Positions 12,823 through 30,310 of a stretch of DNA of 64,000 nucleotides are shown here, piece after piece. The translations under genes were made by a program, and so were the position numbers. The stretch lies in assembly GCA_018402685.1 (NCBI GenBank), contig JAGYIJ010000002.1, forward strand, positions 620,001 through 684,000, given 5' to 3'. Origin of the DNA: Aquiluna sp. Its GTDB lineage: Bacteria > Actinomycetota > Actinomycetes > Actinomycetales > Microbacteriaceae. Each line of letters opens with the position of its first letter. Positions within the stretch are counted from its first letter, which is position 1. The notes under the pieces are model-generated. The model made no database searches. It saw only the letters and a program-made list of their open reading frames with translations, and was not told where the DNA came from.

Positions 12823-13770
12823 TCGCGAGAGAAACTACAGGCCTCCCATGGCTCTCACCACGTTGGTAGCTCGCAATGAGTTCGATCACATTCGATAGCC
12901 CCTTGGTCACAACAGCCAAGCTTGATAGATCTTGAATTTGATCTGCGACGCTTGACCTGGTCTCTGGGGTGTCTTGACTAAAGATCATCTTTTGCTTGCC
13001 CCTGGAGAGCCTGGTCTCCAAAGTGCTGGCCAGGTAACCACCAAAGAACTTTGATCCGCCGCGATCAGAGCCAATTAGAACCACCAGGCCAATCTCACTA
13101 AGGAGTGGGGTTAGGGCGCTCAGGGGGTTGGCTCCCCAAGCACGAAGATCGCATCAAATACCTTGTGCTCAAGCTTTGCAACTCCGTCATGACCGATGAC
13201 CTTGCTTGCTCCTGCCAACCTCACCCACTCACTCTTGCCTGGGCTTGCTGTGGCGGTGACAGCGATTCCGCGCTGATTCAACAATTGCGTCAAAAAACCA
13301 CCCACGGCTCCCGATGCGCCAATCACCAGTGCACGCTCTGCACCTGGCGGAAGCAGTTTTAGAGCGTCGTTTGCGGTGATGCCACTAACCGGGATGGTGG
13401 CCGCCTTCTCCATGCTCAAGCCCTCTGGCACCTTGGTGATCCAAGAGCTCTTGGTTATGGCGAATTCGGCAAAGGTGCCGCGGCCAACCCCAAAGACCTT
13501 GTCTCCCACTGAAAAGCCCTGAGTATCCCCAACGTCAACCACAGTCCCACTAAAGCTCTGCCCGACACCGATGTGCTTTGGCTTTGAAAGACCCAGCATC
13601 AAACGAACGAGAGTTGGGTCTCCCTGCATCAGGTGGTCCATTGAGGCATCAATGGCCGCGTATTCAACCTTGACCAACATCTGGTCTTTTGAGAGCTTGG
13701 GCATTGGCACCCTCTCAAGACTTAGTTTTCGCCAATCTCCATATTCGCGACGAACAACTGCCTGCATCAT
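12812..13770 (-). CDS. Zinc-free MDR-family alcohol dehydrogenase/quinone oxidoreductase, frame broken once
   Basis: A medium-chain dehydrogenase/reductase resembling NADPH:quinone reductases. The N-terminal GroES-like part (VVRREYGDWRKLSLERVPMP, GQSFSGTVVDVG) and nucleotide motif (VIGASGAVGGF) are in one frame. The C-terminal part (VLIGSDRGGSKFFGG...) is in another. They join through EPTPLSALTPLLSEIG if the five-G run at 13123-13127 is given one more base, a homopolymer error by appearance. The start is the ATG at 13770, which overlaps the HTH gene stop (ATGA). No catalytic-zinc ligands are seen. Substrate unknown. Confidence 0.75.
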
Positions 13771-13976
13771 TTCTCCAGCCAAAACAACTCCCTAATTTCA
13801 CAGTCAAAGACTTCTGCGATCTTGATCGCCAGTTCAAGTGATGGCGAATACTTCCCTGACTCAATAGCAATGATTGATTGCCTCGAGACACCCACTAGAT
13901 CTGCGAGGGCTTGCTGAGTCATGCCCTCGCCCTGCTGCCTAACTTCCCTGAGACGGTTCTTGAGTTTTTGAGTCAC
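13767..13976 (-). CDS. Small Cro/C1-type HTH regulator
   Basis: A 69-residue single-domain repressor of the YozG type: helix-turn-helix at about residues 20-45 (TQQALADLVGVSRQSIIAIESGKYSPSLELA) and a short tail (CEIRELFWLEK). It starts with GTG, overlapping the stop of the membrane-protein gene (GTGA), so the two are translated together. Such pairs usually control themselves and their membrane partner; the GTAAAG/CTTTAC repeats just upstream of the first gene (14422-14459) are the likely binding sites. The oxidoreductase downstream may belong to the same transcript. Confidence 0.85.
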   Translation of the reverse strand: MTQKLKNRLREVRQQGEGMTQQALADLVGVSRQSIIAIESGKYSPSLELAIKIAEVFDCEIRELFWLEK

Positions 13977-14401
13977 TCAGTTACCCCAAACCGATACATG
14001 ATCAGCTTTGCCGCTGATCCAATAGCGCTTGCAAGAGAGAAGAAGATTAGAAGTGAGGTGGCGATATAGAAGTGATCAAACCTAAATGCAGCAAGACCGA
14101 GTGCCACAACTCCCCCGATGACATAAAAACCCTGGGTGTAGAACTCACCAAGTCTGTGAATCTTCGTGTCACGCTCATCGGTGAGTTTTAGTTTCGAGCT
14201 CCTGCCAAACGCTGCAGATAGCAGTGTGGATGCAATCACACTGACACCGACCCCGGCACCGATAGCCCAGGCCAATGGTGCAACCAGGTCGTATTCCGAC
14301 ATTGGCTTTGAGAACTCAGAAGAAAGTAGCGTGAAGTAAACCACGATGCTCACGGGTGCTGATAGGACCTGTGCCCAGAAAGATATTTGATGCCTGTTCA
14401 T
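13973..14401 (-). CDS. Four-helix membrane protein paired with an HTH regulator
   Basis: A 142-residue protein with about four membrane segments (10-30, 44-68, 90-108, 115-135) and a cytosolic loop (KLKLTDERDTKIHRLGEF). The DERD block between helices 2 and 3 is typical of small membrane proteins encoded beside YozG-like HTH genes. The function of these pairs is not known to me. Its start at 14401 is preceded by GCGGAGG, a strong ribosome site, and its promoter region carries the putative operator. Intact. Confidence 0.7.
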   Translation of the reverse strand: MNRHQISFWAQVLSAPVSIVVYFTLLSSEFSKPMSEYDLVAPLAWAIGAGVGVSVIASTLLSAAFGRSSKLKLTDERDTKIHRLGEFYTQGFYVIGGVVALGLAAFRFDHFYIATSLLIFFSLASAIGSAAKLIMYRFGVTE

Positions 14402-14459: not shown

Positions 14460-14535
14460 AATTCGTGACAGCCAGAGCGAGATTCCAGAAATTTGAGGCT
14501 TGAAAAGCCGTTGGACATAGAACCAACCAAAAGAG

Positions 14536-14557
14536 TCGAACTCCTCACCTGCTCATT
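14536..14557 (-). repeat. Degenerate copy of the tRNA-Thr 3' segment (possible old attachment site)
   Basis: These 22 bases match 20 of 22 positions of the T-loop to anticodon-stem part of tRNA-Thr(CGU), which is also duplicated at 16518 and complete at 24465, in the same orientation. Matching fades on both sides. It may be a decayed attachment site left by an earlier insertion and would bound the surface-protein gene at 14696. Chance similarity is possible at this length. Confidence 0.4.
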
Positions 14558-14663
14558 GAGAACCACTTAGCATTCCGAGACTGGTTGCGAAAATTCTGAC
14601 TGCTCGCATTGCGTCAATTCAAGATAGCCAAAAATCAAGTTGGGGCCAGTTGCCGACTGGTAT

Positions 14664-14683
14664 CTTTCTATAAATCTAGAAAG
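14664..14683. promoter_or_regulatory. Palindrome upstream of the surface-protein gene
   Basis: Seven-base arms CTTTCTA and TAGAAAG separated by TAAATC, ending 12 bases before the start of the gene at 14696. It could be an operator overlapping the promoter or initiation region. No regulator can be assigned. Confidence 0.3.
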
Positions 14684-14695
14684 TAGACAAAACCC

Positions 14696-16504
14696 ATGTC
14701 GTTTAGCCTTGTCAGGGCAAAAATCGCAAGCGCAGCAACCATGGCTCTAACCTTCTCCATGCTGGGTGTTCTCCCTGCCCAAGCCTCTGTTTTTAACTGC
14801 GATGGGGGCGGAACCTACACGGTTTCTTCAGGAGTGGCGACGACGAACAGCTCATGTGCAGGTGATGTTGAATTTGACGCCTCGGTGACTTCGATCGCAA
14901 ATCAAGCCTTCCAGAACAACTCATCGCTATCTTCCGTCGTCTTTCCTTCATCTGTGACTTCCATTGGGAACGATGCTTTCAAGAACACCAAGATCAACTC
15001 GATTACATTTAGCGAGGGGCTCGCATCTATCGGGAGCTACGCATTTGCTGATATTGCGCCCTCCGCTGGCACCAGATTGAACGCCGTTTTTCCAAACACA
15101 CTGACCTCCATGGGTGATCAGGCATTTGCCCAGTCTCGGCTTGGGCACTTCGTCTTTGGTTCAGGCCTGACGACTATTCCAAGCCATAGTTTTTACAACA
15201 ACTTCGGCTTCGGCGCTCTATCTGTGACATTGACCAGCAGTGTTACTTCAATCGCAACAGCGGCATTTGTAGGTCTGCGTCAGGAGTATCTCTACCTGCC
15301 GGACTCGATTACAGCGATAGCTGAGAGAGCGTTTGAAGGCAGCGCCCTGAAAATAGTGAGACTCCCGGAGAATCTCTCTTCCTTGCACAGCACAGCATTT
15401 AGGTCATCTGGGTCTATTCAAAAGGTGGTCTACTGCGGCAATCTATCTGGAGTCTCGAGCACCGAGGGTATCTCTGGAAAGCCGGTGGTCTGCGGAAAGG
15501 TTGCGGAGTTTAAGTCGAACATTCCTGGTGAATTCAACGAGACCTACCTGCAGGTTGCAAGTTCCTCTGAAGCTCTTGAGACCCCCAATTTCAACCGATC
15601 CGGATTTGAAATCACGGCTTGGAACCTGCAAGCGAATGGGCTCGGTACCTCTTATCCCGCTGGAAGCACTTTCCCATTTACTTCTGACACCATTCTTTAT
15701 GCAAGTTGGAGTGTCGTGGTTTATACGGTGTCTTTTGACTCGTCGGGAGGATCTACACAAACGGCCCTCGGCTTCCCGCTGGGCAGCTCCCCATTGACCC
15801 TGCCCACATCGAGTCGCTCGGGTTATGACTTTTTGGGTTGGTTTAGTGCCTCGCAGCCATCCTTATTGCTCTCAGGAAGCTACACGCCGGGGTCAAATCA
15901 GACCCTGACCGCAAGCTGGTCTGAAATCGTTCAGGTTGCAGCTGCACCCCCGGCGGATACCCCAACATTAAATATCGTCCTGCCCGAAATTAAAAGCTTC
16001 TCGAGTCAGACTGTGTCGCCCGGGGACAAGGTGGTTGTCTCAGGTCGGAGGCTTGACATGGTTCAGTCAGCGTCAGTGGGGGGTTTGAATGCCGAAATTT
16101 CGCTAAAAAGCGAGGGTGGTTTCACTTTGCAGACACCAGCCTCCCTTCCTGGTGGAAGTTACGATCTTGTTCTTGAAACCGCGTCTGGTCGAATTACCTT
16201 CATGTCCGCCCTGAGGATAAATCCCCCGATGGGACTTGCCTCTTTCACGATCAAATTGGATTCAGACTCTCTGAGCGAAGAGCAGTTATTGGAAGTGTCG
16301 ATGATTTCAGCAATGCTTGCTGGTGATTTCAAGAAAATCAACTGTTTAGTAAATGGCGCAGATGAGGGCGTGGCTACTCTAATTTCGGCTCAAGTTTGCA
16401 GCCTCATGTTGTCTGACTCACACTCCTCAGCAATGGCCAAGCAGACAGTAAAGTCCAACTTCAAGGGAAATGGGTACTGGGTTCGCGTCTTCATCGCGGG
16501 CTGA
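14696..16504 (+). CDS. Secreted surface protein with BspA-type leucine-rich repeats
   Basis: A 602-residue exported protein. A signal peptide (about 1-30, ending LPAQAS) is followed by LRR_5/BspA-like repeats at about 55-255, with the recurring pattern xxxSIxxxAFxxxxxLxxVxFPxxVTSI. A Listeria/Bacteroides-type repeat follows near 345-410 (YTVSFDSSGG...GYDFLGW), and an IPT/TIG-like beta domain near 425-510. This architecture is known from adhesive or environment-binding surface proteins. There is no LPxTG anchor or C-terminal membrane helix, so attachment is unexplained. It lies between the degenerate tRNA-Thr fragment and the clear one at 16518, suggesting acquisition. Ligand unknown. Confidence 0.75.
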   Translation: MSFSLVRAKIASAATMALTFSMLGVLPAQASVFNCDGGGTYTVSSGVATTNSSCAGDVEFDASVTSIANQAFQNNSSLSSVVFPSSVTSIGNDAFKNTKINSITFSEGLASIGSYAFADIAPSAGTRLNAVFPNTLTSMGDQAFAQSRLGHFVFGSGLTTIPSHSFYNNFGFGALSVTLTSSVTSIATAAFVGLRQEYLYLPDSITAIAERAFEGSALKIVRLPENLSSLHSTAFRSSGSIQKVVYCGNLSGVSSTEGISGKPVVCGKVAEFKSNIPGEFNETYLQVASSSEALETPNFNRSGFEITAWNLQANGLGTSYPAGSTFPFTSDTILYASWSVVVYTVSFDSSGGSTQTALGFPLGSSPLTLPTSSRSGYDFLGWFSASQPSLLLSGSYTPGSNQTLTASWSEIVQVAAAPPADTPTLNIVLPEIKSFSSQTVSPGDKVVVSGRRLDMVQSASVGGLNAEISLKSEGGFTLQTPASLPGGSYDLVLETASGRITFMSALRINPPMGLASFTIKLDSDSLSEEQLLEVSMISAMLAGDFKKINCLVNGADEGVATLISAQVCSLMLSDSHSSAMAKQTVKSNFKGNGYWVRVFIAG

Positions 16505-16517
16505 GGGTTATCACGGT

Positions 16518-16569
16518 AGAGCCACCCAGGAGAATCGAACTCCTGACCTGCTCTTTACGAGGGAGCTGC
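16518..16569 (-). repeat. Attachment-site-like direct repeat: 3' part of tRNA-Thr
   Basis: These 52 bases are identical to 24463-24514, which span the 3' end through the anticodon stem of the complete tRNA-Thr gene. The remaining 5' half of a tRNA is absent here. This is the expected distal scar of site-specific integration into the 3' end of a tRNA gene. Confidence 0.85.
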
Positions 16570-16672
16570 GTCCCTTTATTCAAAAGCATATATCAAATAG
16601 AGGCGTCCACCAGCTCAAGTAATAATTGGCTCCTTAGCTTGATTTATTGCTTGAGCCAAGTGGCATTCATTT

Positions 16673-18898
16673 TTATGCTGCTCTAAAGATGGTTTTCATT
16701 TCAGTCCAGGCTGAGGCTCTGACAAAAACTGGGACGGAAGCCGCTGTCGTTGTTTCGGCCTCAATGAAAGCCCCTCCTCGGTGAGAATTACCCGAGTAAG
16801 CCTCCACCCAATCAGACCCCGAAGGAAGCCAAACGGTGCGTTTTGCCAAACCTTCGTTAACAATGGGAGCAACCAGAAGGCTGTCACCAAGTTGCCACTG
16901 GAATGAGGCTCGAGGATCCCAAATCTCTTTGTCGAGTGTGTCGAAATATAGAGGGCGCATCAATGGCTTTCCTGTATTTATTGCTTTTGCCATCTGGCCT
17001 GTGAGATAAGGACGAAGGCGATCGCGGATTTTAATTATGTTTCTGAACTCGTCAATGACGCCGGGATCCGAGTTCCGTTCTGCAATATTCCAAGGAGTTC
17101 GGTCCCTGGAAGGCAGCCTATGGTGATTGAACTCGGAGTGGTACTGCATGATAGGAACAAAACAGGCGGTCGCTGCAGACCTCAAGTACAGTTCTGAACT
17201 TGGGACGTCTCCTGAAAAGCCAGCGAAATCCCACCCCCAATAGAAAATTCCTGAAGCGCTGGCGGTAAGCCCAGCGTTGAGTGACCACCTAAATGCTTCC
17301 CAGGTTGAGTTTTCGTCTCCAGCCCAAAAAGCACCGTGAGCTTGGCTCCCGACGTTGCCTGCCCGACTGAAGGTAACAGGAGCCTTGCCCTCTGATGTAA
17401 GCAAATTTCCATAGGCCTCTGCATAGTGAACAGGGAACTTCCAATTCATTTCATCACCGCGTTTACCGTTCTTGTATAACAGCCCCCTTCCCCAGGCATG
17501 CTCACCGCCATCTGTCTTGAACCCGTCTATGCCCAAGTCCCTGACGAGATACCGTCTCTTGTCGGTCCACCATTGTGCAGATTCAGGGTCACTGAGATCA
17601 GGCATCAGCCCAAGGGGGAACCACCATCCCCTATTTCTGTATGGCTTCTCTACTCCAGCCGAATTCTCCTCAATAATGAGATGACCTCCCTCTATTGCCT
17701 CCGATACGTCTTCAGCAAGGGGCCCCTTTGGGTGAGGTCGCATCTTTAGCAGGGGAATTTGCCAGAGATGAACTTTCACGCCTCTTGAATGTAGGTCGTC
17801 GACCATCTCTTTTGGATTCGGCCATGCTCCATCCTTTGGGAATGAAAAATCTGTGAGCTTTGTCTCACCGCTACTCACTTTGGAAGTTCTTTCCGCATCT
17901 CGCCAAGTCGTAAAAGTCGACTCGTCACTCCATGCTTCGATCACTAGGTTTGAAAATGAGATGTCGTACTCCCTATGAAGGTCAGCCTGGCGGAGAACTT
18001 CAGCCTGAGTATTCCATTCGTTAGCACTCGCCCAGAGCCCAAAGACCCACTCAGGAAGCTCTTGTGGCCTTCCGCACTTGTTCAAAAAGGCATCAAGAAC
18101 TTCACTGGGTGACCCATCAAAAAAATGAATCTCGGGTGAAAATGGCTCTCCAATTAGGCCGTCAACATCGACTGTTACTTTCAGTAAATTTGTTTCTTGT
18201 TTTCCAATGTCAAATTCCACCTTTCGGTAGGAGTCAATCCAAAAACCCCAACCCCCTCCTCCAACAACATGTGCGAAGGGCATAGGCATGTAAGTTCTTG
18301 CCTCTTTGCCTTGATTCTTATATTGCTCGAACAAGATAGTGTCCACCTTTGAGCTGCGAAACTCTTGTGCTTCAAACCTTTCTCCAAAACCGCTGACGCG
18401 TTCATCCGCACTCAGCTCAAATTGAAACTTGATTGCCCGAACATGTTCGCCATTGGTTAGCATTCGGACGCCCCCGTTGAGTCGCGACGTACCAGAGGTG
18501 GAAATCTGCAAATCAGAATCTTTCCACTGATACACAGAGGTCACAAACCATCTCGTATTGCCCGAGTTTGAGACGAATCTATACCTAAGTTTTTGACCAA
18601 ATGTCAACCCGTTCAGCTGGACAGTCCAACCACCCGACTGTCGCGCCAGGCGAGCTTGAGCGGATGCTAAATGGCCGCCATCCAATACTTGTCCCCGCGA
18701 TTTTCGCTGAGTCTTTTGAAGAGCTAGCGGAGTTTGCGGGATCCCGTCTAGCTCATAAATCAGATCGACGCGCTCAACATCTGATGTTGACCTGACTCCA
18801 AGATCCAATGGCTCGCCCGCAATTGGATCGATAGGACTTCGCTGGTCCGTGTCTACTGAATAAGGGTGGCCGCTTCCATGAGGTCTGTGCTTGATCAT
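16673..18898 (-). CDS. Glycoside hydrolase family 31 alpha-glucosidase
   Basis: A 741-residue cytosolic retaining alpha-glucosidase (no signal peptide). The catalytic nucleophile is Asp463 in GFKTDGGEHAWG and the acid/base is Asp528 in FWAGDENSTWE. The N-terminal beta-sandwich carries GFGERFE near 190. I start at ATG 18898 rather than at the upstream ATG (18988) because 18898 overlaps the GH15 stop as ATGA, the usual coupling, and the added 30 residues look non-conserved. It is the last gene of the islet operon and would release glucose from the non-reducing end of imported oligosaccharides. Xylosidase-type GH31 members exist; the GH15 partner favours alpha-glucosides. Confidence 0.88.
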   Translation of the reverse strand: MIKHRPHGSGHPYSVDTDQRSPIDPIAGEPLDLGVRSTSDVERVDLIYELDGIPQTPLALQKTQRKSRGQVLDGGHLASAQARLARQSGGWTVQLNGLTFGQKLRYRFVSNSGNTRWFVTSVYQWKDSDLQISTSGTSRLNGGVRMLTNGEHVRAIKFQFELSADERVSGFGERFEAQEFRSSKVDTILFEQYKNQGKEARTYMPMPFAHVVGGGGWGFWIDSYRKVEFDIGKQETNLLKVTVDVDGLIGEPFSPEIHFFDGSPSEVLDAFLNKCGRPQELPEWVFGLWASANEWNTQAEVLRQADLHREYDISFSNLVIEAWSDESTFTTWRDAERTSKVSSGETKLTDFSFPKDGAWPNPKEMVDDLHSRGVKVHLWQIPLLKMRPHPKGPLAEDVSEAIEGGHLIIEENSAGVEKPYRNRGWWFPLGLMPDLSDPESAQWWTDKRRYLVRDLGIDGFKTDGGEHAWGRGLLYKNGKRGDEMNWKFPVHYAEAYGNLLTSEGKAPVTFSRAGNVGSQAHGAFWAGDENSTWEAFRWSLNAGLTASASGIFYWGWDFAGFSGDVPSSELYLRSAATACFVPIMQYHSEFNHHRLPSRDRTPWNIAERNSDPGVIDEFRNIIKIRDRLRPYLTGQMAKAINTGKPLMRPLYFDTLDKEIWDPRASFQWQLGDSLLVAPIVNEGLAKRTVWLPSGSDWVEAYSGNSHRGGAFIEAETTTAASVPVFVRASAWTEMKTIFRAA

Positions 18899-20022
18899 TT
18901 TGTTCTCTCTAATTCGGATTTGAGTTTTAGGAACATTGCATGCGTCCATAGGAGTGGTCGAGCCGATGGGCCCCAGCGGTTCAACCAATATTCTTCGAAT
19001 CTCGGCTTTATGAGATGGCTGTTCACCTGCTCAGGAAGATGGCTGTCCCGGTCTGCCAAAGAACTAACCCAAATAAGGGTCTCTTCAGCAAATTTCCGAT
19101 TCCCTATTCGAAGTTCGGCCAACGCCAGGTAGCAGGAAAGCAATGGCCATAGTCCTCCCCCAAAGAAACTATCTGAGTCATAGCGATGAACCCCATAACC
19201 TTGAAGTAAATCTTTCCGAATTCGTTTGATTGTGCCCAAGTAAATGGGATCACTTTTGTCGATGACCCCTAATGGTGCGAGGAGCGAGAGAGCGGAAGCA
19301 TCAACCTGCGGGGAGCCTTCCCACTTAGGCAAATGACCAATGGAACCAATCCTTCTGAGCTTAGATTCGATTTCTGCAATCGCTATATCGGCTTGATGGG
19401 TTAAGTTTTCGTCTAGGAGATTGAGGTTTATGGCACTCCTCATCCCAGACGCTACCGAGCCGAGAGTTGCCACGTGAACCTTGTCGCTATTTTCTTCCCA
19501 CCAGTCATAGCAGGGTGAGCTCCAACTTGCCAGCAAGTATTTGATGCTCAGTGATACGGCGTGAGAAAATGGGGCCGCATTCATGCCAGACCTTAATGAG
19601 TGCTGCTCAAGTGCCCAAATCCAAGAGCCGTATCCATCAATTTGATGATCAGGCCAGGGCTCATCTGGATCTTCAACCTGATCAAATGCGTAACGAGTGG
19701 GTAGGGCATTAGCTGGATCGAATGCCTCACCTGAAAAGTGCAGATCGTAATGTTGCTGGATAATTTGACCGGAAGGTTCGATCGTATTTGCACACCAAGC
19801 AAAGAACTTTTCACTTGAGTCGAAGGCTCCCGCTGATGACATGCCATCTGCAATGAATGCGCCATCACGAAACCACGAGAAACCTTCGTACGCCGAAAAG
19901 GTTGGTGATGCCGGGTAGGCACCCGAGCGATCTTGAAGCCCGCGAATTAAGCTGGTGGAACTAGCTGATAGTTCTTCAATGGACTTCAACTTTTCGCTTG
20001 AAATATTGGAACCTAACTTCAT
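18895..20022 (-). CDS. Short GH15-type glucohydrolase
   Basis: A 375-residue (alpha/alpha)6-barrel hydrolase lacking a signal peptide and the N-terminal beta domain of long glucoamylases. The general acid lies in YDWWEENSDKVH (Glu176/177) and the general base is Glu331 in SHLPEQV. Size and layout resemble the GH15 isomaltose glucohydrolase described from Kribbella, which inverts alpha-1,6-linked isomaltose to beta-glucose in the cytosol; that comparison is from memory. Other GH15 activities cannot be ruled out. It follows the sugar-binding lipoprotein gene by 63 bases and overlaps GH31, so the trio imports and splits the same sugars. Confidence 0.8.
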   Translation of the reverse strand: MKLGSNISSEKLKSIEELSASSTSLIRGLQDRSGAYPASPTFSAYEGFSWFRDGAFIADGMSSAGAFDSSEKFFAWCANTIEPSGQIIQQHYDLHFSGEAFDPANALPTRYAFDQVEDPDEPWPDHQIDGYGSWIWALEQHSLRSGMNAAPFSHAVSLSIKYLLASWSSPCYDWWEENSDKVHVATLGSVASGMRSAINLNLLDENLTHQADIAIAEIESKLRRIGSIGHLPKWEGSPQVDASALSLLAPLGVIDKSDPIYLGTIKRIRKDLLQGYGVHRYDSDSFFGGGLWPLLSCYLALAELRIGNRKFAEETLIWVSSLADRDSHLPEQVNSHLIKPRFEEYWLNRWGPSARPLLWTHAMFLKLKSELERTK

Positions 20023-20085
20023 TTGTACCTCTGGGTATGGTTGACAGACCCCCAGACAGCTGGGGATCTGTCAACATGAACTTAC

Positions 20086-21363
20086 TTATCCGCCAATGAT
20101 GGCGTTGATTTCAGCTTCAGCCGTAGCAAGTGCTTCTTCGACAGTCTTGCGCCCTGCTTGAGCTTCGACAAGTTCGCGCCCCACGATGTCCTGCATCTCC
20201 GACTGACCAACAGCAACTGCTGGAGGCATGACTACCTCGTTCATGGCGTCAAAAACTGCCTTGCGGTTCGCTGGGGTACCCATTGTTAGGTAAGTAGCCA
20301 ACTTGGCCTCATCCGAAATTGGTGGAAGTTCCCAGCCTGCAGCGAGACGAAGATCAACCATGATGTCAGAGGAAGTTAGGTACTCGGCCCACTTGGCTGC
20401 GGCTACCTTGTTTGCAGAGTTTGAGTTAACTCCAACGGCGTTTGAGAAGGCTGAGTGAGCATTGGTCTTGTTTCCAGGCTCGACAGCAATATCCCAATTG
20501 AAAGGTGCATCAGCAAATGCGCCGAACATCCAAATGCCAGTGTGGAGCATCCCCAACTTTCCATCTTTGAAAAGATTTGAGTCGAAATCAGGCGTTCCCT
20601 GGCCCTGTTCAATAGTCGGCATTGTCGTGCCCGATTTTTCAACTAGCCACTTTGCGGCCTCAATGCCCTCTGGAGAGTTAAAGGCTACCGACTTGCGGTC
20701 ATCGCTTAGGAACTGCCCCCCAGCCTGAGCAAGAACTTTGTAGTACTCCCAGAACTGAACTGGCTGATGGTGTCCCCAAATGTCAGCTGACTGGTTTGTG
20801 ATCTTCAAGCCCGCAGCTTTTTGATCCTCCCAAGTCCAACTTTCGGTTGGGTAATCCACTCCCGCTGCATCAAATAGGTCTTTGTTGTAAAACAGAACGA
20901 CCGTAGAGAATGCAGAAGGTATTGCGTATGAAACCCCGTCCGTTGAGTAAGCCGAGAGGAGCCCCTGCTTGTATACACTTGGGTTGGAAACTGCAATAGG
21001 TGCAAGGACTCCATTAGCTTGAAGCTCTTGGTAGTTTGAGTACTCCATATCGAACACATCCGACAAAGTTCCTGCGGCAATGTCAGTCTGCAATGCTGTG
21101 CCGTAGTCGCCATATGGAAGTGTTGTCACTTCAACAGTGATATTGGGGTTTTCCGCTTGGAAAGCCTGGACGATCTTGTCCAGGTTTTCCTCGTTTCCGC
21201 CGTTTGATATGAAGTTCGTGTAGGTAATTGTCACGGCCTCATCAACTTCAGCATCTGGAGAGATAGCGTCTATTGTTTCAGGTGTTTCGGAGGCAGTCGC
21301 ACAGCCAGTTAGCATAAGAATTACACCAAGGGCTCCGGCAGCCGCCTTTCTTTTGTTTCTCAT
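20086..21363 (-). CDS. ABC importer sugar-binding lipoprotein (MalE/UgpB type)
   Basis: A 425-residue extracellular binding protein of the carbohydrate uptake-1 family. A lipoprotein signal ends in MLTGC (Cys21), so the mature protein is tethered to the membrane by lipid. The body has the usual cluster-1 features (YGTALQTDIAAGTLSDVFD, LFYNKDLFDAAGVDYP, AAKWAEYLTS). The ribosome site AGGAAAGGAAACGG is strong. It follows the second permease by 22 bases. No ATPase gene is in the operon, so a shared MsiK-type ATPase elsewhere probably drives transport, as is common in actinobacteria. The likely substrate is an alpha-gluco-oligosaccharide, from the enzymes downstream. Confidence 0.9.
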   Translation of the reverse strand: MRNKRKAAAGALGVILMLTGCATASETPETIDAISPDAEVDEAVTITYTNFISNGGNEENLDKIVQAFQAENPNITVEVTTLPYGDYGTALQTDIAAGTLSDVFDMEYSNYQELQANGVLAPIAVSNPSVYKQGLLSAYSTDGVSYAIPSAFSTVVLFYNKDLFDAAGVDYPTESWTWEDQKAAGLKITNQSADIWGHHQPVQFWEYYKVLAQAGGQFLSDDRKSVAFNSPEGIEAAKWLVEKSGTTMPTIEQGQGTPDFDSNLFKDGKLGMLHTGIWMFGAFADAPFNWDIAVEPGNKTNAHSAFSNAVGVNSNSANKVAAAKWAEYLTSSDIMVDLRLAAGWELPPISDEAKLATYLTMGTPANRKAVFDAMNEVVMPPAVAVGQSEMQDIVGRELVEAQAGRKTVEEALATAEAEINAIIGG

Positions 21364-21385
21364 TCCGTTTCCTTTCCTGCGGACA

Positions 21386-22198
21386 TCACTTAATGCCCGA
21401 GCTTGCTATGCCCTGCACAACGTAGCGCTGAGCAAAAATGAAAATAATTAGCATTGGAATGATGCTGATTACAGAACCAGCCATAAGGACATCCCATGCA
21501 GTCGTGTACTGCCCCTGAAGGTTTGCTAAGGCGACTGGCAATGTTTGAAGCTCTGGCTTCCTGAGGACCACAAGTGGCCACAAGAAACTATTCCAACTAG
21601 CCATGAAGGAAAAAACTGCAAATGTCGCCAGAGCTGGTCCCATATTGGGGATGAGAATTAGCGTAAATATTCTGAGATGGCCGGCGCCGTCAATCCGTGC
21701 CGCTTCATCCAGCTGTCGCGGAATTTGGTTAAGGGATTGTCGCAGTAGAAAAATTCCAAAGGCGCTTGTCATCGTTGGCAAGATTGCAGCCCAATACGTA
21801 TTTAGCAGACCAAAGTACTTCAGCTCGATAAATAAAGGAACAATGAGAACTTGGAAAGGGATCATTAACGTCGCCAGATATGCAAGAAAAATGATGTTTT
21901 TAAATCTGAATTCCAATCGGCTGAAGGCATAGGCGGCTAAAGATCCAGTCAGAATCTGAATCAAGGTAGTCACCCCTGCGATGAAAAGACTGTTGAAAGC
22001 GCTTCGCCCAAAATCAAATTTTTGAAACAATTCCTCGTAAGCAGAAATCCCAGGATTCGCTGGCCAAAGCAATGGAGCTTTTGCAACACTCGCGCCAGGT
22101 GTTATTGAAGTTAGGAAGGTCCAGTAGAAAGGAAACAGCATAGCAATCGCGGCGATTGCTAAGAATAAAAACAAAATCCACCGCTTGCTAATCTGCAT
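21386..22198 (-). CDS. ABC sugar importer permease (MalG type)
   Basis: A 270-residue inner-membrane permease with six helices of the carbohydrate uptake-1 family. The EAA loop that docks the ATPase is visible as EAARIDGAGHLRIFTLILIPNMGP near 165-188. The N-terminus (FYWTFLTSITP) and C-terminus (QRYVVQGIASSGIK) are normal for MalG-like proteins. Its start overlaps the end of the first permease by 11 bases. Intact. Confidence 0.92.
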   Translation of the reverse strand: MQISKRWILFLFLAIAAIAMLFPFYWTFLTSITPGASVAKAPLLWPANPGISAYEELFQKFDFGRSAFNSLFIAGVTTLIQILTGSLAAYAFSRLEFRFKNIIFLAYLATLMIPFQVLIVPLFIELKYFGLLNTYWAAILPTMTSAFGIFLLRQSLNQIPRQLDEAARIDGAGHLRIFTLILIPNMGPALATFAVFSFMASWNSFLWPLVVLRKPELQTLPVALANLQGQYTTAWDVLMAGSVISIIPMLIIFIFAQRYVVQGIASSGIK

Positions 22199-23086
22199 AG
22201 TGCACCCATCTCTTCTGGCCGTAATTCTGAACGGCCGTCACCACCAAAATGACCCCAAATAACACCCAACTCAGAGCTGCTGCTTCGCCTGCACGTCCAT
22301 ACCTGAAAGTTAGGTCGTAAATCTGCTGCATCACAACTCTCGTTGAGTCTCCTGGGCCCCCACCTGTCATCGCGAATACCTGGTCGAAAACCTGAATTCC
22401 ATTAATCATTGAAATCACGAAAACAAAAAACAGGCTCGGGCTTAGCAATGGCAAAACTACTGAGAATAAGCGCCTAAACCAGCCAGCACCATCGAGCAGA
22501 GCTGCTTCAATTAGCTCTTCGTCGATGTTTTGCAAACCTGCAAGAAGAATGATTGTCACAAAACCAATGTCCTTCCAGGCGGAAGCAATAATGATCGCGG
22601 GCATTGCCCAGTTTGGATCCGTCCACCAACCTGGTCCAGAGATTCCAATTGCTTCTAGGAAGCTGTTTACGACTCCATTGCTTGGGTTCAGCAACCATCT
22701 CCAAACGATGCTCACCGCTATCCAGCTAGTAACCACTGGCAAGAAGAACGACGCCCTGAAGAAAGTTCTACCCGGAACTTTTGAGTTAAGGGCTAGGGAA
22801 AAAGCAGCCCGAAGAAGAAAACAAGCGGAAGATACCCAAGAACGTAGGCAAATGAGTTGGAAAACACGAGAAATGTTTTTGGGGAAGTCAGCAACTCCTG
22901 ATAATTGGACAGTCCAATAAAATTGAATTTCCCGATCAAATTCCAATCACTTGCGCTCACAAGAAGTGCCCCCACCATTGGAATAAAAACAAAAATAATC
23001 ATCGGAAGCGCACTGGGTAAAAGGAAGAAAAGAGCGATGGTCAGGTCAGAAATTTTTTTACGTTTTTTGATTTCCACAAGGTTCAT
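22188..23086 (-). CDS. ABC sugar importer permease (MalF type), frame broken once
   Basis: The partner membrane subunit, about 299 residues. The N-terminal part (22793-23086; MNLVEIKKRKK then the first helices) and the rest (22188 onward, with FFLPVVTSWIAVSIVW and the EAA loop EAALLDGAGWFRRLFSVVLP) lie in different frames. They join through GLLFSLALNSKVPG if the five-A run at 22799-22803 gets one more base. This is a homopolymer break and most likely an error rather than decay, as the other operon genes are intact. The start ATG overlaps the ROK regulator stop (ATGA), so the regulator is part of the operon. Confidence 0.82.
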
Positions 23087-24303
23087 TTGGAAACTCCCGC
23101 TGCAACAAAGCGTCTTCTGATCTTGCTCGCCTGAACTCCGATGTCAGAATTCGTTGAGCGTGACGCCGAGAGCACTAAAGAAGCTGCGCCCTGAGCCCAG
23201 CTAGCATCGTTCCAATGTTCCACAACAACAGGAATGCCGAGAGCACCCGGCAAAGACTTGGAACGAAGAGTGGTCAGGAATTCGCTCGACCATAAATCCC
23301 ACTGACTTACGCCTTCTCCAAGAACCAAAATGGCCTCTGGGTCAAAGATATTCACCAAATTGGAGACTGCAGTTCCCAAATGTCTAGCTGCAGTTTGAAA
23401 TATTTCTTGCGCGGCCGCATTGCCGGCTCGGCCAATGTTGGCCAAATTTCCTACGTTCTCTTCACCGGAAATCAGCCCCTTGTCATTACCAGCGGCTTCA
23501 AGCGAGGTTTGACCAATCACAGCCTCTAGACAGCCTTTTTTTCCGCAATTACAAATTGGGCCCTCTGGGTCAATCTCTATGTGACCAAGTTCTCCAGCTG
23601 CTCCCCTGGAGCCCCTGTAGAGATCACCTTCAATAACGATGGAGAGTCCGATACCCGTTCCTATAGTGACAACTAGGAAATTCTGAAAGTTGCGACCGGT
23701 CCCGTAGAGCTGCTCTGCCACTGCCACAGCATTGACGTTATTCTCAACAACTACTGGCAGGGATAAGGTCCGGGCTAGGGTTGCGCCGAGTGGGATGCCT
23801 TGCCAACCGAGTGTCACTGAATCAACACTTCCCGTGTTTGAGTCTCGAACAGCCCCAGGGACAGCCACTCCAATGCCGAGAATCACTGAGGACTTTGAAT
23901 CAGAGATAAAAGAAGCCGTTTTCTCGGCCAGATCTTCAAGAATCGAACTGGCTGAAGAATTGAAATCGACGGTTGAAGACATCAGAATTGCACCATCGGT
24001 GGCCATCGCTACAAAAGTGAGATGATCGGCGACGACCTTTATGCCGATAGTGGTTCCCGCTTCCGAAGATAAGCCCAAAAGGGTTGCTGGACGCCCACCA
24101 CTCGATGAGAGAGTCCTCGTTTCACGAATCAAGCCATCAGATACCAGGTCCCTGGTCAGCTGAGTAATCAAGGCGGGTGACAAGTTCAAGAGGCGAGCAA
24201 GATCAGTCCTGCTAGCTGCGCCAGCAATTCCGAGCTGGGCCAAAATCGCAGACCGGTTTAGGTCTGACTTGCTTAAGCGTCCCTGATCCATAACTTTTTT
24301 CAT
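23083..24303 (-). CDS. ROK-family transcriptional regulator
   Basis: A 406-residue sugar-responsive regulator (XylR/NagC type). A winged helix near residues 18-65 (AILAQLGIAGAASRTDLARLL...LITQLTRDLVSDGLI) precedes the ROK sugar-kinase-like fold with the zinc signature CNCGKKGCLE near 255 and ELGHIEIDPEGP. It heads the islet operon and overlaps the first permease gene, so it is very probably its repressor or activator, released by the imported sugar or glucose. An AT-rich stretch at 24304-24330 upstream may hold its operator. It is a regulator, not a kinase, because of the HTH domain. Confidence 0.9.
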   Translation of the reverse strand: MKKVMDQGRLSKSDLNRSAILAQLGIAGAASRTDLARLLNLSPALITQLTRDLVSDGLIRETRTLSSSGGRPATLLGLSSEAGTTIGIKVVADHLTFVAMATDGAILMSSTVDFNSSASSILEDLAEKTASFISDSKSSVILGIGVAVPGAVRDSNTGSVDSVTLGWQGIPLGATLARTLSLPVVVENNVNAVAVAEQLYGTGRNFQNFLVVTIGTGIGLSIVIEGDLYRGSRGAAGELGHIEIDPEGPICNCGKKGCLEAVIGQTSLEAAGNDKGLISGEENVGNLANIGRAGNAAAQEIFQTAARHLGTAVSNLVNIFDPEAILVLGEGVSQWDLWSSEFLTTLRSKSLPGALGIPVVVEHWNDASWAQGAASLVLSASRSTNSDIGVQASKIRRRFVAAGVSK

Positions 24304-24392
24304 TTCTAAATTAAGTTAAGTAAAAAGATAGTGGCACTTTCCTACAGGCGGGACGGAAGTGAGGACTTGTTACCAAATAGAGATACTGGTGG

Positions 24393-24419
24393 GTGTCTCT
24401 TAAATACCAACAGAGACAC
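24393..24419. repeat. Hairpin between the islet operon and tRNA-Thr
   Basis: Perfect 8-base arms (GTGTCTCT and AGAGACAC) around an 11-base loop, about 90 bases upstream of the ROK gene and about 46 bases past the 3' end of tRNA-Thr. It has no good T-run on the minus strand. It could be an operator or a weak terminator for tRNA readthrough. Confidence 0.3.
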
Positions 24420-24462
24420 TCAGTTGTTTTGGGGTTTTGCTTAGGAACAAAAATTCAATTCG

Positions 24463-24514
24463 AGAGCCACCCAGGAGAATCGAACTCCTGACCTGCTCTT
24501 TACGAGGGAGCTGC
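24463..24514 (-). repeat. Attachment-site-like direct repeat inside tRNA-Thr
   Basis: The right-hand copy of the 52-base repeat, identical to 16518-16569. It covers the tRNA 3' half plus two bases beyond the end. Identity stops one base into the anticodon-stem/D-arm side, so the crossover lay within this block. Confidence 0.85.
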
Positions 24515-24537
24515 TCTACCGACTGAGCTAGGGTGGC
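24465..24537 (-). tRNA. tRNA-Thr (anticodon CGU)
   Basis: A complete 73-base cloverleaf on the minus strand. Acceptor stem GCCACCC/GGGTGGC, D-arm GCTC...GAGC, anticodon loop CTCGTAA (anticodon CGU, threonine ACG), T-arm AGGAG-TTCGATT-CTCCT, discriminator U, no encoded CCA. The base of the anticodon loop has a C31-A39 mismatch. The 3' 50 bases are part of the 52-base repeat that also occurs at 16518, marking it as an integration site. Confidence 0.93.
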
Positions 24538-24839: not shown

Positions 24840-26459
24840 TTAGGCCAGAACTGGCTCCGGTCTTTCGAACAGATACTGCGCATAGGCAGGAATCGTCAAA
24901 AATGTTGGGAACTCTTCCTCGAGGCAGACCTCCTCGAAGACCTTGATTGCATCATCGATGCGATCGCCTTCGAACCTGTCTAGGCCGGCTACGACCTCCT
25001 CGAGCTGACTTCTGACCCAGTTGGCAGTGATGAGGTTGCCCTCCTTGGTCTTTGAGCCCTGGTAGATCCACTGCCAGATCTGAGATCTTGAGATCTCAGC
25101 GGTGGCAGCATCTTCCATCAGGTTGTCAAGCGCTGCTGCACCAATACCCCTGAGCCAGGAGTCGATGTAGCGAACGGCGACCGAGATGTTAGAGCGAACA
25201 CCCTGTGTGCTGATCTCTCCACCCGCAGAGGCAATGTCAATCAGATCGTTTGCGGTGACGCTAACCTCTGGACGCTGACGGTCAAGCTGGTTTGGCTTGC
25301 CCTGAAGCACAGCGTCAAACTCTGCTCTTGCAGTTGCGATCAGATCGGGGTGCGCAACCCAGGTGCCATCAAAGCCGTCTCCGGCCTCGCGGTTCTTGTC
25401 GGCCGCAACCTTCTGCAGTGCACGCTCAGTAACCTCTGGGTCCCTGCGGTTTGGAATGAAGGCGCTCATTCCACCAATCGCGTGAGCACCTCTGCGGTGA
25501 CAGGTCTTGACCAACAGCTCGGTGTAGGCACGCATGAATGGCAGTGTCATCAGAATCTGATCACGGTCTGGCATCACAAAGCCCTTACCGCGGCCGCGGT
25601 AGTTCTTGATGATCGAGAACACGTAGTCCCAGCGACCAGCGTTTAGGCCAGCGCAGTGATCTCTCAGTTCAAAGAGAATCTCGTCCATCTCAAACGCTGC
25701 GGTGATGGTCTCAATCAAAACGGTTGCGCGAATGACACCGTGTGGCAGGTTTAGGTAGTCCTCGGTGAAGGTGAAGATCTCGTTCCACAACCTTGCCTCG
25801 AGGTGGTTCTCGATCTTGGCGATGTAGAAATAGGGTCCCTTGCCCGCATCGATCAACGCCTGGGCGTTGTGGAAAGCGTATAGACCGAAGTCCACCAAAG
25901 ATCCCGACATTGGGTGCTGGGAGCCACCCTCGTGAACGTGAAGAATGTTCTTCTCAACCAGGTGCCAACCTCTTGGTCGCATCACGATGGTTGGGGTCTC
26001 AGTTGCGGTGACCTCATACTTCTTGCCCTCGGGTGAGGTGAAGCTCAGCTGTCCTCGGATTGCATCAAATAGGGACAGCTGCCCACCAATTACGTTCTGC
26101 CAGGTTGGACTGGTTGCATCCTCCTGGTCTGCAAGCCAGACATTGGCACCCGAGTTCAGAGCGTTGATGGTCATCTTTGGGTCAGTGGGTCCGGTGATCT
26201 CGACCCTGCGGTCTTCGAGGCCTGGGCCAAAGCCCGCCACCGACCAGGTGCCGTCTTCTCTAATGTGCTTGGTGTCACTCAGAAACTTGAGATCGCGTCC
26301 GTTATCAAGGGCACGCCTTCTGTCCATGCGATCGACCAGCCGGTTGTGGCGATCAGCACCGAAGCGGTGCTGAAGCTCCTCTAGGAATGTGAGGGCGGCC
26401 GGGGTGAGGATCTCGTCAAAACGATCGTTCATTGGGCCAAGTACTTTAATGCTGTCCAT
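24840..26459 (-). CDS. aceB: Malate synthase A
   Basis: The second enzyme of the glyoxylate shunt, condensing glyoxylate with acetyl-CoA to malate in the cytosol. At 539 residues it is the short (A) form. Signature features are IVMRPRGWHLVEKN near 160 (active-site Arg region) and GDGFDGTWVAHPDL near 365, with ATVLIETITAAFEMDEI near 245. The start at 26459 has AGGGAGG upstream. It lies 29 bases downstream of aceA on the same strand, and ends at a strong terminator, so the two form an acetate-induced operon. Confidence 0.96.
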   Translation of the reverse strand: MDSIKVLGPMNDRFDEILTPAALTFLEELQHRFGADRHNRLVDRMDRRRALDNGRDLKFLSDTKHIREDGTWSVAGFGPGLEDRRVEITGPTDPKMTINALNSGANVWLADQEDATSPTWQNVIGGQLSLFDAIRGQLSFTSPEGKKYEVTATETPTIVMRPRGWHLVEKNILHVHEGGSQHPMSGSLVDFGLYAFHNAQALIDAGKGPYFYIAKIENHLEARLWNEIFTFTEDYLNLPHGVIRATVLIETITAAFEMDEILFELRDHCAGLNAGRWDYVFSIIKNYRGRGKGFVMPDRDQILMTLPFMRAYTELLVKTCHRRGAHAIGGMSAFIPNRRDPEVTERALQKVAADKNREAGDGFDGTWVAHPDLIATARAEFDAVLQGKPNQLDRQRPEVSVTANDLIDIASAGGEISTQGVRSNISVAVRYIDSWLRGIGAAALDNLMEDAATAEISRSQIWQWIYQGSKTKEGNLITANWVRSQLEEVVAGLDRFEGDRIDDAIKVFEEVCLEEEFPTFLTIPAYAQYLFERPEPVLA

Positions 26460-26488
26460 GTCTAACCTCCCTGTTAGTGCCTTACGGC

Positions 26489-27787
26489 CTAGTGGAACTG
26501 CTCTTCTTCGGTCGAACCAACCAGCGCCAAGGTGGAGCTGTTTGGGTTCAGTGCGGTTGAAATGGCGTCGAAGTAACTGGTGCCAACCTCGCGCTGGTGG
26601 CGGGTGGCGGTGTAGCCGCGGCTCTCAGCGGCAAACTCTGCCTCTTGGAGCTCGACGTAGGCACTCATCTGACGGTCCTTGTAGTCAAGAGCGAGTTCGA
26701 ACATGCCGTAGTTCAGTGAGTGGAATCCTGCCAGGGTGATGAACTGGAAGGCATAGCCCATTGCGCTCAGTTCACGCTGGAACTTAGCGATCTGGTCATC
26801 GTCCAGGTGACGCTTCCAGTTGAACGATGGTGAGCAGTTATAGGCCAGCTTCTGGTCTGGGAACTCGCTCTTGATGCTCTCTGCAAAGCGCTTTGCTAGC
26901 TCGAGGTCTGGCTCTGCGGACTCAACCCACAAGAGGTCAGCGTATGGGGCGTAGGCGTGGCCGCGAGCCAGCACTGGCTCGATGCCGTTTTGCACCTGGT
27001 AGAAGCCCTCTGCGGTGCGCTCACCGGTCACGAACCTGGCATCGCGCTCGTCGTGGTCGGAGGTGAGCAAGGTTGCAGCCAGGGCATCGGTCCTTGCGAT
27101 AACGATGGTTGGGGTTCCCGAGACATCTGCTGCCATACGAGCTGCGTTTAGGGTGCGAACGTGCTGGCTGGTTGGAATTAGCACCTTGCCACCCATGTGT
27201 CCACACTTCTTCTCGCTGGCCAGCTGGTCTTCCCAGTGCACTCCAGCGGCACCGGCATCGATCATCTGGAGCATCAGCTCGTAGGCGTTTAGTGGACCAC
27301 CAAAGCCGGCCTCGGCATCGGCAACAATCGGAGCCATCCAGTCGCGCTGGTCGCCCCCATCAGTTGATTCAATCTGGCCTGCTCGCATCAGCGCGTTGTT
27401 GATCCTGCGAACCACGGCAGGAACAGAGTTGGCTGGGTAGAGGCTTTGGTCTGGATAGGTCTGGCCCGAGAGGTTGGCATCTGCCGCAACCTGCCAGCCA
27501 GAAAGGTAGATGGCCTTCAGTCCGGCGCGAATCTGTTGCACCGCCTGGTTACCAGTTAGTGCACCAAGTGCTGAGATCCACTCTTGTGGGTCGTCATTCT
27601 CCAGGATCATCTCCCAGAGCTTTTCTGCACCTCGCTTTGCCAAGGTCTTTTCTTCGCGGACTGGTCCGCGCAGTTTGATTACATCTTCAGCGGTGTAGTC
27701 ACGCTTCACATTTGCCCAGCGAGGGTCGCTTACCCATTCAAACTGCAGCTCGGCGGCGGTTTGATTCTGGTCTCCAGGTCGAATCAT
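26489..27787 (-). CDS. aceA: Isocitrate lyase
   Basis: The first enzyme of the glyoxylate shunt, splitting isocitrate to glyoxylate and succinate. The 432-residue protein carries the family signature KKCGHMGGK (catalytic Cys) near 190 and the substrate-binding NCSPSFNW near 315. It heads the aceA-aceB operon and is divergent from the RamB-like regulator, with 141 bases between them that must hold both promoters. Intact. Confidence 0.96.
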
Positions 27788-27928
27788 TTTGTTGCTCCTA
27801 ATCTTGATGTGGCTTCTTTGCCTTAGGGCAAGACTTCACTAAAAACAACCTCAGTTAGTTATCAAATCGTTTAGAAAAAACCCTCTTTTTCTCTTGAGAG
27901 AAATAACTGAAGCTGGCAATCTTGAGAT
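27788..27928. promoter_or_regulatory. Divergent aceA / ramB-like promoter region
   Basis: The only gap between the glyoxylate operon and its probable regulator. It is AT-rich in the middle and has a spaced inverted repeat, TCAGTTA at 27851-27857 and TAACTGA at 27904-27910. I do not find a good copy of the corynebacterial RamB box. Regulation from here is inferred from position. Confidence 0.45.
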
Positions 27929-29365
27929 ATGGAACTGCATGACATGGACAATCTCCTGATCGGAAAGCGCATCAGAGCGCTAAGAAACGAGCAGGGAGTC
28001 AAACTCGAGAGACTCGCTCAACACATGGGAAGAGCCAATTCCCACCTAAGCGCAATCGAGAACGGCAAGCGAGATGCCAAGATTTCGGACCTCAAGGCCA
28101 TCGCTGAGTTTTTTGGGATCACCATCCAGGCTCTGGTTGAAAACAAGGAGCCAACCGGCAGAGATGCGCTTGAGATTGAGATGGCAAAAATTCAACGCGG
28201 ACCACTTTTTGAATCCCTAGGCATCAAACCGATTCCAGTTCGCAAGTCGACCTCTGATGAGGTGCTGAGCACCATGATCACCCTGCACAACGAACTCGAG
28301 CGCATGCACTCGGACCGCGCCTCCACCCCAGAAGAGGCCAGAAGAGCCAATGCAGAGCTGCGCGAAACCATGCGAGCCAGAAACAACTACTTTCCTGAAA
28401 TCGAAAAGGTTGCCAAGCAGCTCTTAGGGGCAGTGAACCACAGTGCCGGACCGCTAAGTCAGCGGCTCACAGCAGATCTTGCACAGCACCTGGGCTTCAC
28501 CCTGCACTATGTCGGCGACCTTCCCCATGCCACCAGGAGCGTTACCGACCTCAGAAACATGCGGATCTACCTATCTAGATCCACTACACCGGGCTCTGAC
28601 CCCAGGGCAGCGCTATTGCAGGCATTGGCATCATTTGCCCTTGGCCACCGAGAGGTCAAGACCTACGCCGAGTTTCTAGAGCAGCGAATTGAAATCAACT
28701 ACCTTGCTGGAGCACTCATGCTTCCCGAGGCCTCGGCGGTCAAGTTCCTCAAAAACGCCAAAGAGGAGCGGGAGCTGGCGGTCGAAGACCTGAGAGATGC
28801 CTTCGCAGTCAACTACGAGACCGCAGCTCACCGCTTCACCAACCTTTCCACCGAACACCTTGGTATTCCGGTGCACTTTTTGAAGGCGCACTCATCGGGA
28901 TCGGTTGCCAAGGCCTACGAAAACGATGGTGTGCTGTTTCCCAAAGATGCCCTTGGCACCATTGAGGGTCAGACGGTGTGTGCGAAGTGGAGTGCCAGGC
29001 AAGTGTTCCTGGAACAGGACCGACTGGCTCCGTATCACCAGTACACCGACAAGCCAAATGGCACGTACTGGTGCACCTCAAGAATCGAACGCGGTAGCCA
29101 AGGTGATTTCTCAATCAGCCTTGGCACACCGTTTGAAACTGTTCGATTCTTTAGGGGTAGAGAGACCAAAAGACGCGGTCAGTCCACCTGCCCGGATGAC
29201 AGCTGCTGCAGAATTCCGCCGCAAAACATTGCGGCCAAGTGGGCAGGCAAGGCGTTTCCAAGCGCCATTGTGAACTCTTCACTGCTCGCAGCCCTGCCCA
29301 AGGGCCCAGTGCCGGGAGTGGATCAGATTGAGGTGTTGCAGTTCCTGGAGGCCAGGAGTGACTAG
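27929..29365 (+). CDS. ramB: RamB-like XRE/DUF2083 regulator of acetate metabolism
   Basis: A 478-residue regulator of the short-chain fatty acyl (ScfR/RamB) family. An N-terminal Cro/C1-type HTH (about 10-65: GKRIRALRNEQGVKLERLAQHMG) is followed by an ImmA/IrrE-like domain that lacks a full HExxH, and a C-terminal DUF2083-type region with several cysteines (CAKWSARQVF..., TCPDDSCC) that may bind metal. In Corynebacterium RamB represses aceA and aceB; its position divergent from aceA fits that role here. An in-frame ATG at 27944 is an alternative start directly before the HTH. Ends by overlapping the convergent MpaB-like gene by four bases. Confidence 0.85.
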   Translation: MELHDMDNLLIGKRIRALRNEQGVKLERLAQHMGRANSHLSAIENGKRDAKISDLKAIAEFFGITIQALVENKEPTGRDALEIEMAKIQRGPLFESLGIKPIPVRKSTSDEVLSTMITLHNELERMHSDRASTPEEARRANAELRETMRARNNYFPEIEKVAKQLLGAVNHSAGPLSQRLTADLAQHLGFTLHYVGDLPHATRSVTDLRNMRIYLSRSTTPGSDPRAALLQALASFALGHREVKTYAEFLEQRIEINYLAGALMLPEASAVKFLKNAKEERELAVEDLRDAFAVNYETAAHRFTNLSTEHLGIPVHFLKAHSSGSVAKAYENDGVLFPKDALGTIEGQTVCAKWSARQVFLEQDRLAPYHQYTDKPNGTYWCTSRIERGSQGDFSISLGTPFETVRFFRGRETKRRGQSTCPDDSCCRIPPQNIAAKWAGKAFPSAIVNSSLLAALPKGPVPGVDQIEVLQFLEARSD

Positions 29366-30267: not shown

Positions 30268-30310
30268 TTGGTTGCCTAACCTTGTAGCAGAAAAACCTTT
30301 AGGGAGAACC

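Follow-up and report, generated by a model that had tools for sequence, protein, structure and literature searches.

We analysed a 64,000-nucleotide stretch of the genome of Aquiluna sp. (assembly GCA_018402685.1, contig JAGYIJ010000002.1, positions 620,001 to 684,000; hereafter the window), in which a six-gene sugar-use operon, the islet, lies between an intact tRNA-Thr(CGT) gene and a second copy of the 3' part of that gene. Our preferred reading, which we hold to be very probable, is that a tyrosine integrase of the Aquiluna tRNA-Thr site inserted the islet as accreted cargo that behaves like a cis-mobilizable element (CIME). A first-pass annotation, made from the sequence alone, had noticed a perfect duplication of the tRNA 3' part 8 kb away, in the geometry made by tyrosine-recombinase elements, and had read the DNA between as a minimal cargo unit. 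The duplication was confirmed over 52 of 52 bases. The reading is supported by the finding that the same tRNA holds integrase-bearing units in three genomes and integrase-less units in others.

The repeat comprises tRNA positions 24-74 plus one base and was recovered with an E value of 3.9e-25 when the window was compared with itself by blastn. The assembly to which it belongs measures 1.48 Mb in 3 contigs (93% complete, 4% contamination), and the window lies inside a contig of 748 kb. In this genome, a 101-base query laid over the left copy found two places only at E <= 0.001, namely the copy at 16518 and the tRNA; a looser search added one match elsewhere (72% identical, E 0.009). In ungapped scans of 40 loci (678,509 bases) with pooled tRNA queries for attachment (att) sites, the distal copy of the window scored 51; apart from tRNA genes and the tRNA-Thr copies listed, the best match scored 15. 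A chance origin of the repeat was considered and rejected on the self-comparison E value and the scan scores. A search for a second copy of the tRNA-Ser of the window gave nothing beyond 12-base chance matches. The identity of the two copies is compatible with the recent event proposed in the first-pass annotation but leaves recency unproven; with the operon missing from this site in the relatives searched, no date can be given.

The DNA between the repeats had been described as a catabolic operon alone, without an integrase, and both Pfam and tblastn bear this out. By Pfam, the six genes, all on one strand, encode a ROK-family regulator, two BPD_transp_1 permeases of an ATP-binding cassette (ABC) transporter, a solute-binding protein and two glycoside hydrolases of families 15 and 31 (GH15 and GH31). 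Judging from these families, the operon is predicted to import and hydrolyse alpha-glucosides, which is the likely function. No integrase was found in the islet by tblastn with three integrases of the tRNA-Thr site, nor among its six proteins by Pfam; the sole match of this tblastn search in the window (44248-44355) had an E value of 0.52. Pfam likewise showed no relaxase or transfer genes among the six proteins. A prophage remnant or phage satellite was rejected, as Pfam found no phage structural, packaging or regulatory genes among them. As to the orphan integrase for which a search had been suggested, two Phage_integrase matches exist in the whole genome, in frames of 299 and 295 amino acids that we take, from their size, to be XerC/D, but neither lies near the site. 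An integrase could still lie in an assembly gap, because the assembly is 93% complete.

The composition of the islet sets it apart from its surroundings, as a comparison proposed in the first-pass annotation established. Its GC content is 0.487, below that of both the right flank (0.542; 0.527-0.551 in windows of 7.9 kb) and the left flank (0.523). GC content at third codon positions follows the same pattern, with 0.47-0.50 in five islet genes, 0.59-0.67 in four right-flank genes and 0.52-0.55 in two left-flank genes. The cargo is an ordinary operon of larger Microbacteriaceae and foreign to Aquiluna. At E 1e-60, the GH31 gene was detected in 44 of 398 genomes of the family, including that of the window. 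Within the genus it is found only in the latter (G000; genomes are given here as G and fetched loci as L numbers), bar a 29%-identical relative in G002, and apart from this distant relative the operon genes were not found in the other 21 genus genomes. Eight family relatives were fetched among the best GH31 matches. Six of them have the complete six-gene set in unchanged order, one has no match to the binding protein and one is cut by a contig end; none of these eight 20-kb stretches contains a tRNA.

The tRNA-Thr site was then compared across 22 Aquiluna genomes (113 loci scanned, 47 with tRNA-Thr(CGT)), excluding from the counts matches below 32 bits and duplicate records of one genome (L106 = L068, L110 = L074). 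A tRNA-Thr match is present in 20 of the 22 genomes, G013 and G019 being those without. Nine carry an extra 3' part or a second full copy (G000, G004, G006, G007, G008, G009, G014, G015 and G021). At loci holding both the tRNA and a partial copy, all nine distinct copies lie downstream and in the same orientation. The copies of G004 and G009 and the far copy of G007 lie on contigs without the tRNA, where the distance is not visible, and G008, with two full copies on two contigs, was left out of the unit count. No further copy accompanies the tRNA in the fetched stretches of ten genomes (G001, G002, G003, G010, G011, G012, G016, G017, G018 and G020), the stretch of G016 being 6.6 kb only; the tRNA of G005 is at a contig end.

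Occupied and unoccupied versions of the site exist on the same backbone. In G011 and G016, a conserved backbone gene directly follows the tRNA and the site is unoccupied. The flanking genes of G014, G015 and L107 are 85-95% identical in DNA to those of G011 and G016, yet there the site is occupied: in the case of G014 by a unit of 0.54 kb in which an open reading frame scan found no gene, and in the case of G015 by a unit of 1.9 kb with one amine-oxidase-like gene. G001 has a different surface gene after the tRNA, and beyond it a homologue of window positions 13973-14401; the islet and the leucine-rich repeat (LRR) gene that lies to its left in the window are absent. The comparison with an empty site that the first-pass annotation had proposed showed unoccupied relatives on the backbone of G014, G015 and L107; for the species of the window itself, no exact empty site turned up among the genus genomes searched. 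The opposite arrangement, the operon in place without the tRNA repeat, which would have spoken against integration, is seen in no genus genome searched.

These independent genomes with the same architecture also bear on the possibility that foreign DNA was joined at a conserved tRNA during assembly. The listed contamination and several broken frames in the window would fit such a chimera; we regard it as very improbable in view of the shared architecture and of the position of the window within a large contig of a three-contig assembly.

Integrase-bearing partners occupy the same tRNA. A tyrosine integrase gene lies directly after the tRNA in three units, those of G006, G007 and L107 (record CALGUV010000050.1), beginning 230-525 bp from it; the L107 integrase shares 57% identity with that of G007 and 37% with that of G006, and the G007 unit was inferred across two contigs. 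The G006 unit (L060) is 12.3 kb long, ends in a second complete tRNA-Thr(CGT) and also holds an HTH_17 protein, a Rep_1-like protein (below the Pfam cut-off) and restriction-like genes. The G007 unit also holds GmrSD-type genes. In the part of the proteins of these three units that was searched, Pfam gave no conjugation or relaxase family. Bounded units without an integrase number ten: one each in the window, G014, G015, G009 and G004, three in G021 and two in L107. G021 and L107 hold arrays of three units. The third G021 unit and the G004 unit have a 25-base copy as far boundary. The last unit of L107 is composite, with a far end similar to the one in G015.

At least one integrase-less unit crossed between species. 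The G021 unit adjoining the tRNA, which encodes an M60-type peptidase and a protein of 284 amino acids, is 99.0% identical over 3,925 bp to the last unit of L107. The alignment begins inside the tRNA or att copy, and the host gene immediately preceding the tRNA shows 67.5% (DNA) and 68.6% (protein) identity between the two. In neither copy was an integrase found by tblastn with the three integrases. It is possible that the M60 unit travelled as part of a composite, because L107 retains an integrase unit beside its tRNA. The same data weigh on homologous recombination, for example by transformation, from a carrier donor, with the site-specific event only in the distant past. Exchange of islands through recombination in flanking genes is common in streamlined bacteria, and the neighbouring genes of the site vary widely among genus members. 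However, no genus genome searched holds the operon, and the M60 identity begins within the att copy or tRNA next to the divergent preceding gene, so that we consider this route improbable for the islet.

We infer that the islet entered by site-specific integration. In this mechanism, a circle carrying the tRNA 3' part would have been joined to the host tRNA by an integrase of the G006/G007/L107 family, which would keep the tRNA whole and leave the second copy at the far end. The unit would now be inert alone, with no integrase of its own and only the two XerC/D-sized recombinases in the assembly. Renewed movement would be possible if an integrase-bearing unit landed adjacent to it (accretion, in cis) or supplied the integrase in trans.

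How the unit came to be without an integrase can be pictured in two ways. Firstly, a deletion may have removed an integrase that the unit once carried next to the tRNA, as in the classical origin of a CIME; we hold this to be close to an even chance. The distance of the partner integrases from their tRNA corresponds to the site of the ROK gene in the window, which shows no paired repeat at that place. Moreover, an integrase-less G021 unit and the integrase-bearing L107 unit have 506 bp in common at 97.6% identity, a link that fits decay of integrase-bearing units. However, tblastn detected no integrase remnant in the islet, and the integrase-less G014 unit has paired repeats at both ends, so that loss on the tRNA side is no general rule. 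Secondly, the unit may never have had an integrase and may owe its movement to the integrase of a neighbouring or co-resident unit, which we advance tentatively. The excess of bounded integrase-less units (ten against three with an integrase), the presence of the M60 unit in two species, in one of them with an integrase unit in the same array, and the likeness of the distal ends of units with and without integrase point to it. Against this, such units might also spread as whole composites or through homologous recombination, and the ends of the window unit are only partly of the shared type.

To describe the ends, 17 distal copies were examined, of which one (L063) has 7 bases only before the core. 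Eight of them have a paired repeat, YYAAGY-N5-7-YYAAGY (12 bp of arms), at a distance of 85-125 bp ahead of the distal core; the window is among them, with a distance of 85 bp. With 15 occurrences in 791,376 bases of background, about 0.06 would be expected, compared with the 8 observed. After the tRNA, such repeats were seen in 3 of 36 flanks, at 71, 71 and 73 bp, namely in the integrase-bearing G007 and L107 and the integrase-less G014. These repeats are putative arm sites of the integrase. Seven of the 17 copies have a GAAAACA-type hairpin ahead of the core. The copies begin at tRNA positions 24-33 in 12 cases, at 39 in one and at 50 in two, and two are full tRNAs; one L107 copy is a mosaic between positions 31 and 39. 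Because the starts cluster at 24-33 and the mosaic falls at 31-39, a crossover in the anticodon loop is suggested, which we do not claim.

Several observations weigh against integration of the islet as a mobile unit of this system. No genus relative carries the window operon as a unit. At the tRNA-side end of the window no paired repeat was found, and at its distal end no GAAAACA-type hairpin; because these are missing, the unit may no longer be mobilizable. The motif patterns were written after inspection of the ends, so that their counts are descriptive and no independent test. The tRNA 3' halves that stand before the M60 unit differ between L107 and G021, and a simple crossover in the anticodon loop fails to explain this; gene conversion or a more 3' crossover would be needed. 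Finally, no vehicle between cells was found in phage, plasmid and IMG/VR searches. In IMG/VR, one tRNA-Thr att pattern gave 0 matches, and integrase relatives were at most 33% identical among the 80 loci listed of 151. Relatives in the listed phage (8) and plasmid (8) records were 24-29% identical, and all 886 phage and 172 plasmid records stayed below 60% identity to the integrases. A phage or plasmid may still have served as vehicle.

By analogy, the islet fits an already known kind of element, working like CIME accretion and islands without an integration module. As described in PMC7563491, streptococcal CIMEs keep their att sites, have no integrase or transfer genes and stand in tandem at one site; those with cargo, carbohydrate enzymes included, measure 1.2-13 kb, and microCIMEs of 130-220 bp hold no genes. 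Similarly, the window unit is bounded by att-like sites identical over 52/52 bases, is without integrase, relaxase or transfer genes by Pfam and tblastn, and shares its site with integrase units of relatives. In contrast, the streptococcal elements, according to the same text, derive from and adjoin integrative and conjugative elements (ICEs) or integrative and mobilizable elements (IMEs), whereas no integrase unit lies beside the window unit. An origin of the islet from an ICE or IME is only a possibility, so we liken it to a CIME in its way of working and stop short of classing it among them. As to accretion, three units stand in array in G021 and in L107, and the window shows only a probable decayed second unit.

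Related arrangements are described in other papers. The ssrA islands of Dehalococcoides form a tandem series on the downstream side of a single RNA gene, with copies of that gene's end as boundaries; they include catabolic operon cargo, and 15 have no integration module and are suggested by the authors to be possible CIMEs (PMC3146451). They use a serine recombinase and a 20-bp repeat at the tmRNA, whereas Aquiluna shows a tyrosine integrase and repeats of 25-52 bases at tRNA-Thr. In the streamlined freshwater bacterium 'Ca. Methylopumilus', the additive island fGI-2 is marked by tRNA-end repeats (PMC10872708); it concerns tRNA-Lys(CTT) and another phylum, and the portion consulted describes no integrase partner or cross-species unit. 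Tycheposons are cargo islands at tRNA genes of streamlined plankton that, unlike the window unit, carry a tyrosine recombinase (PMC10872708, PMC11389934). Clusters of attC sites lacking integrases (CALINs) are integron cassette arrays dependent on an integrase encoded elsewhere (PMC11389934). Their boundaries are attC sites; those seen in the Aquiluna units are tRNA-Thr fragments, and no attC search was made. Among the results listed in searches on CIMEs, tycheposons, Aquiluna, tRNA-Thr islands without an integrase and Microbacteriaceae islands, no title or abstract opening describes the Aquiluna site.

Water bacteria with small genomes can accommodate few mobile elements, yet their diets differ. 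One docking site together with small integrase-less units gives a concrete route by which an uptake-and-digestion operon could be added to a genome of 1.4-1.5 Mb. Several integrase-less units carry a single gene or two, such as those for an M60-type peptidase, an FAD oxidoreductase or a surface protein; in the window the cargo is a whole sugar operon. A wider reading, that a genus-wide, tRNA-anchored cassette system moves integrase-less units between species in trans with the integrases of rarer neighbours, is rather unlikely in our view; equally doubtful is a role of tRNA-Thr(CGT) as docking platform for a gene pool, like an integron without integron parts. To us, the most interesting part is the presence of an integrase-less unit in two species. 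The present definition of the site, the partner integrases and the end motifs is sufficient for direct recombination tests that would tell action in trans from action in cis.

Table 1. Features of the islet and its surroundings in the window (positions of the 64,000-nucleotide stretch).
Feature	Position	Strand	Basis
Integrase-less cargo unit, 7.9 kb	16570..24462	-	
tRNA-Thr(CGT), integration site, intact	24464..24537	-	ARAGORN + Rfam
att-like repeat, tRNA-side copy, 52 bases	24463..24514	-	sequence match
att-like repeat, distal copy, 52/52 identical to tRNA-side copy	16518..16569	-	sequence match
Paired arm-like repeat TCAAGC-N6-TCAAGC, 85 bp before distal core; none at tRNA-side end	16637..16654	-	
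ROK-family regulator	23083..24303	-	Pfam PF00480
ABC permease A, open part; gene appears to begin further right, frame apparently broken	22188..22946	-	Pfam PF00528
ABC permease B	21386..22198	-	Pfam PF00528
Extracellular solute-binding protein	20086..21363	-	Pfam PF01547/PF13416
GH15-like protein	18895..20022	-	Pfam PF00723
GH31 glycosidase, AIMA-like N-terminal domain, start codon uncertain	16673..18988	-	Pfam PF01055, PF21568, PF21365
LRR (BspA-type) surface-like protein, probable cargo	14696..16504	+	Pfam PF13306, PF09479
Probable decayed att copy, 21/23 bases of tRNA positions 40-62	14532..14554	-	

In view of the weak att remnant beside it, the LRR gene to the left of the islet (Table 1) is probably the cargo of an older second unit of about 14555-16517, which comes on top of the ten bounded units. 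The gene has no counterpart matching over its full length in the remaining 21 genomes of the genus. The putative decayed att copy next to it scored 17, against a maximum of 11 in 12 simple shuffles and 10 on the opposite strand; compared with the pooled-query maximum of 15 elsewhere in the 40 loci, this is a modest margin. A score of 19 in L118 falls in tRNA-Cys.

Split frames were noted at three places in or near the region: 9081-10593 (FAD oxidoreductase), 12812-13782 and 22188-23087 (permease A). For permease A, the whole-gene coordinates tried contained stops and the break was otherwise judged by eye; for 12812-13782, the relative in G001 is a single frame of 321 amino acids. Because two more genes of the window are split like permease A, assembly indel errors are as likely as real inactivation.

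Some further observations concern the site and its surroundings. To the right of the tRNA, three genes at 24840-29365, presumably malate synthase, isocitrate lyase and their regulator, stand between it and a gene at 29362-30414, which here lies 4.8 kb from the tRNA, compared with 13-747 bp in 14 relatives that have it complete. An isolated tRNA-Thr 3' copy (39 bases, 92%) with a decayed repeat-like stretch before it lies at L078:9190-9228 (G014:C2), on a contig without the tRNA, and is perhaps an old unit inserted or moved elsewhere. A degenerate tRNA-Thr-like stretch, not called by ARAGORN, is found at L075:9899-9949 (G021:C72), about 1.1 kb from a tRNA-Ser(GGA). Other integrases of the genus begin just after tRNA-Lys(CTT) in L265 and L262 (G001:C3 and G009:C1), and because of this position tRNA-Lys(CTT) may be a second docking tRNA. 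Finally, five loci with Verrucomicrobia-type titles (L111, L112, L115, L118 and L134) hold homologues 64-67% identical to the gene before tRNA-Thr, and these titles or bins may be mistaken.

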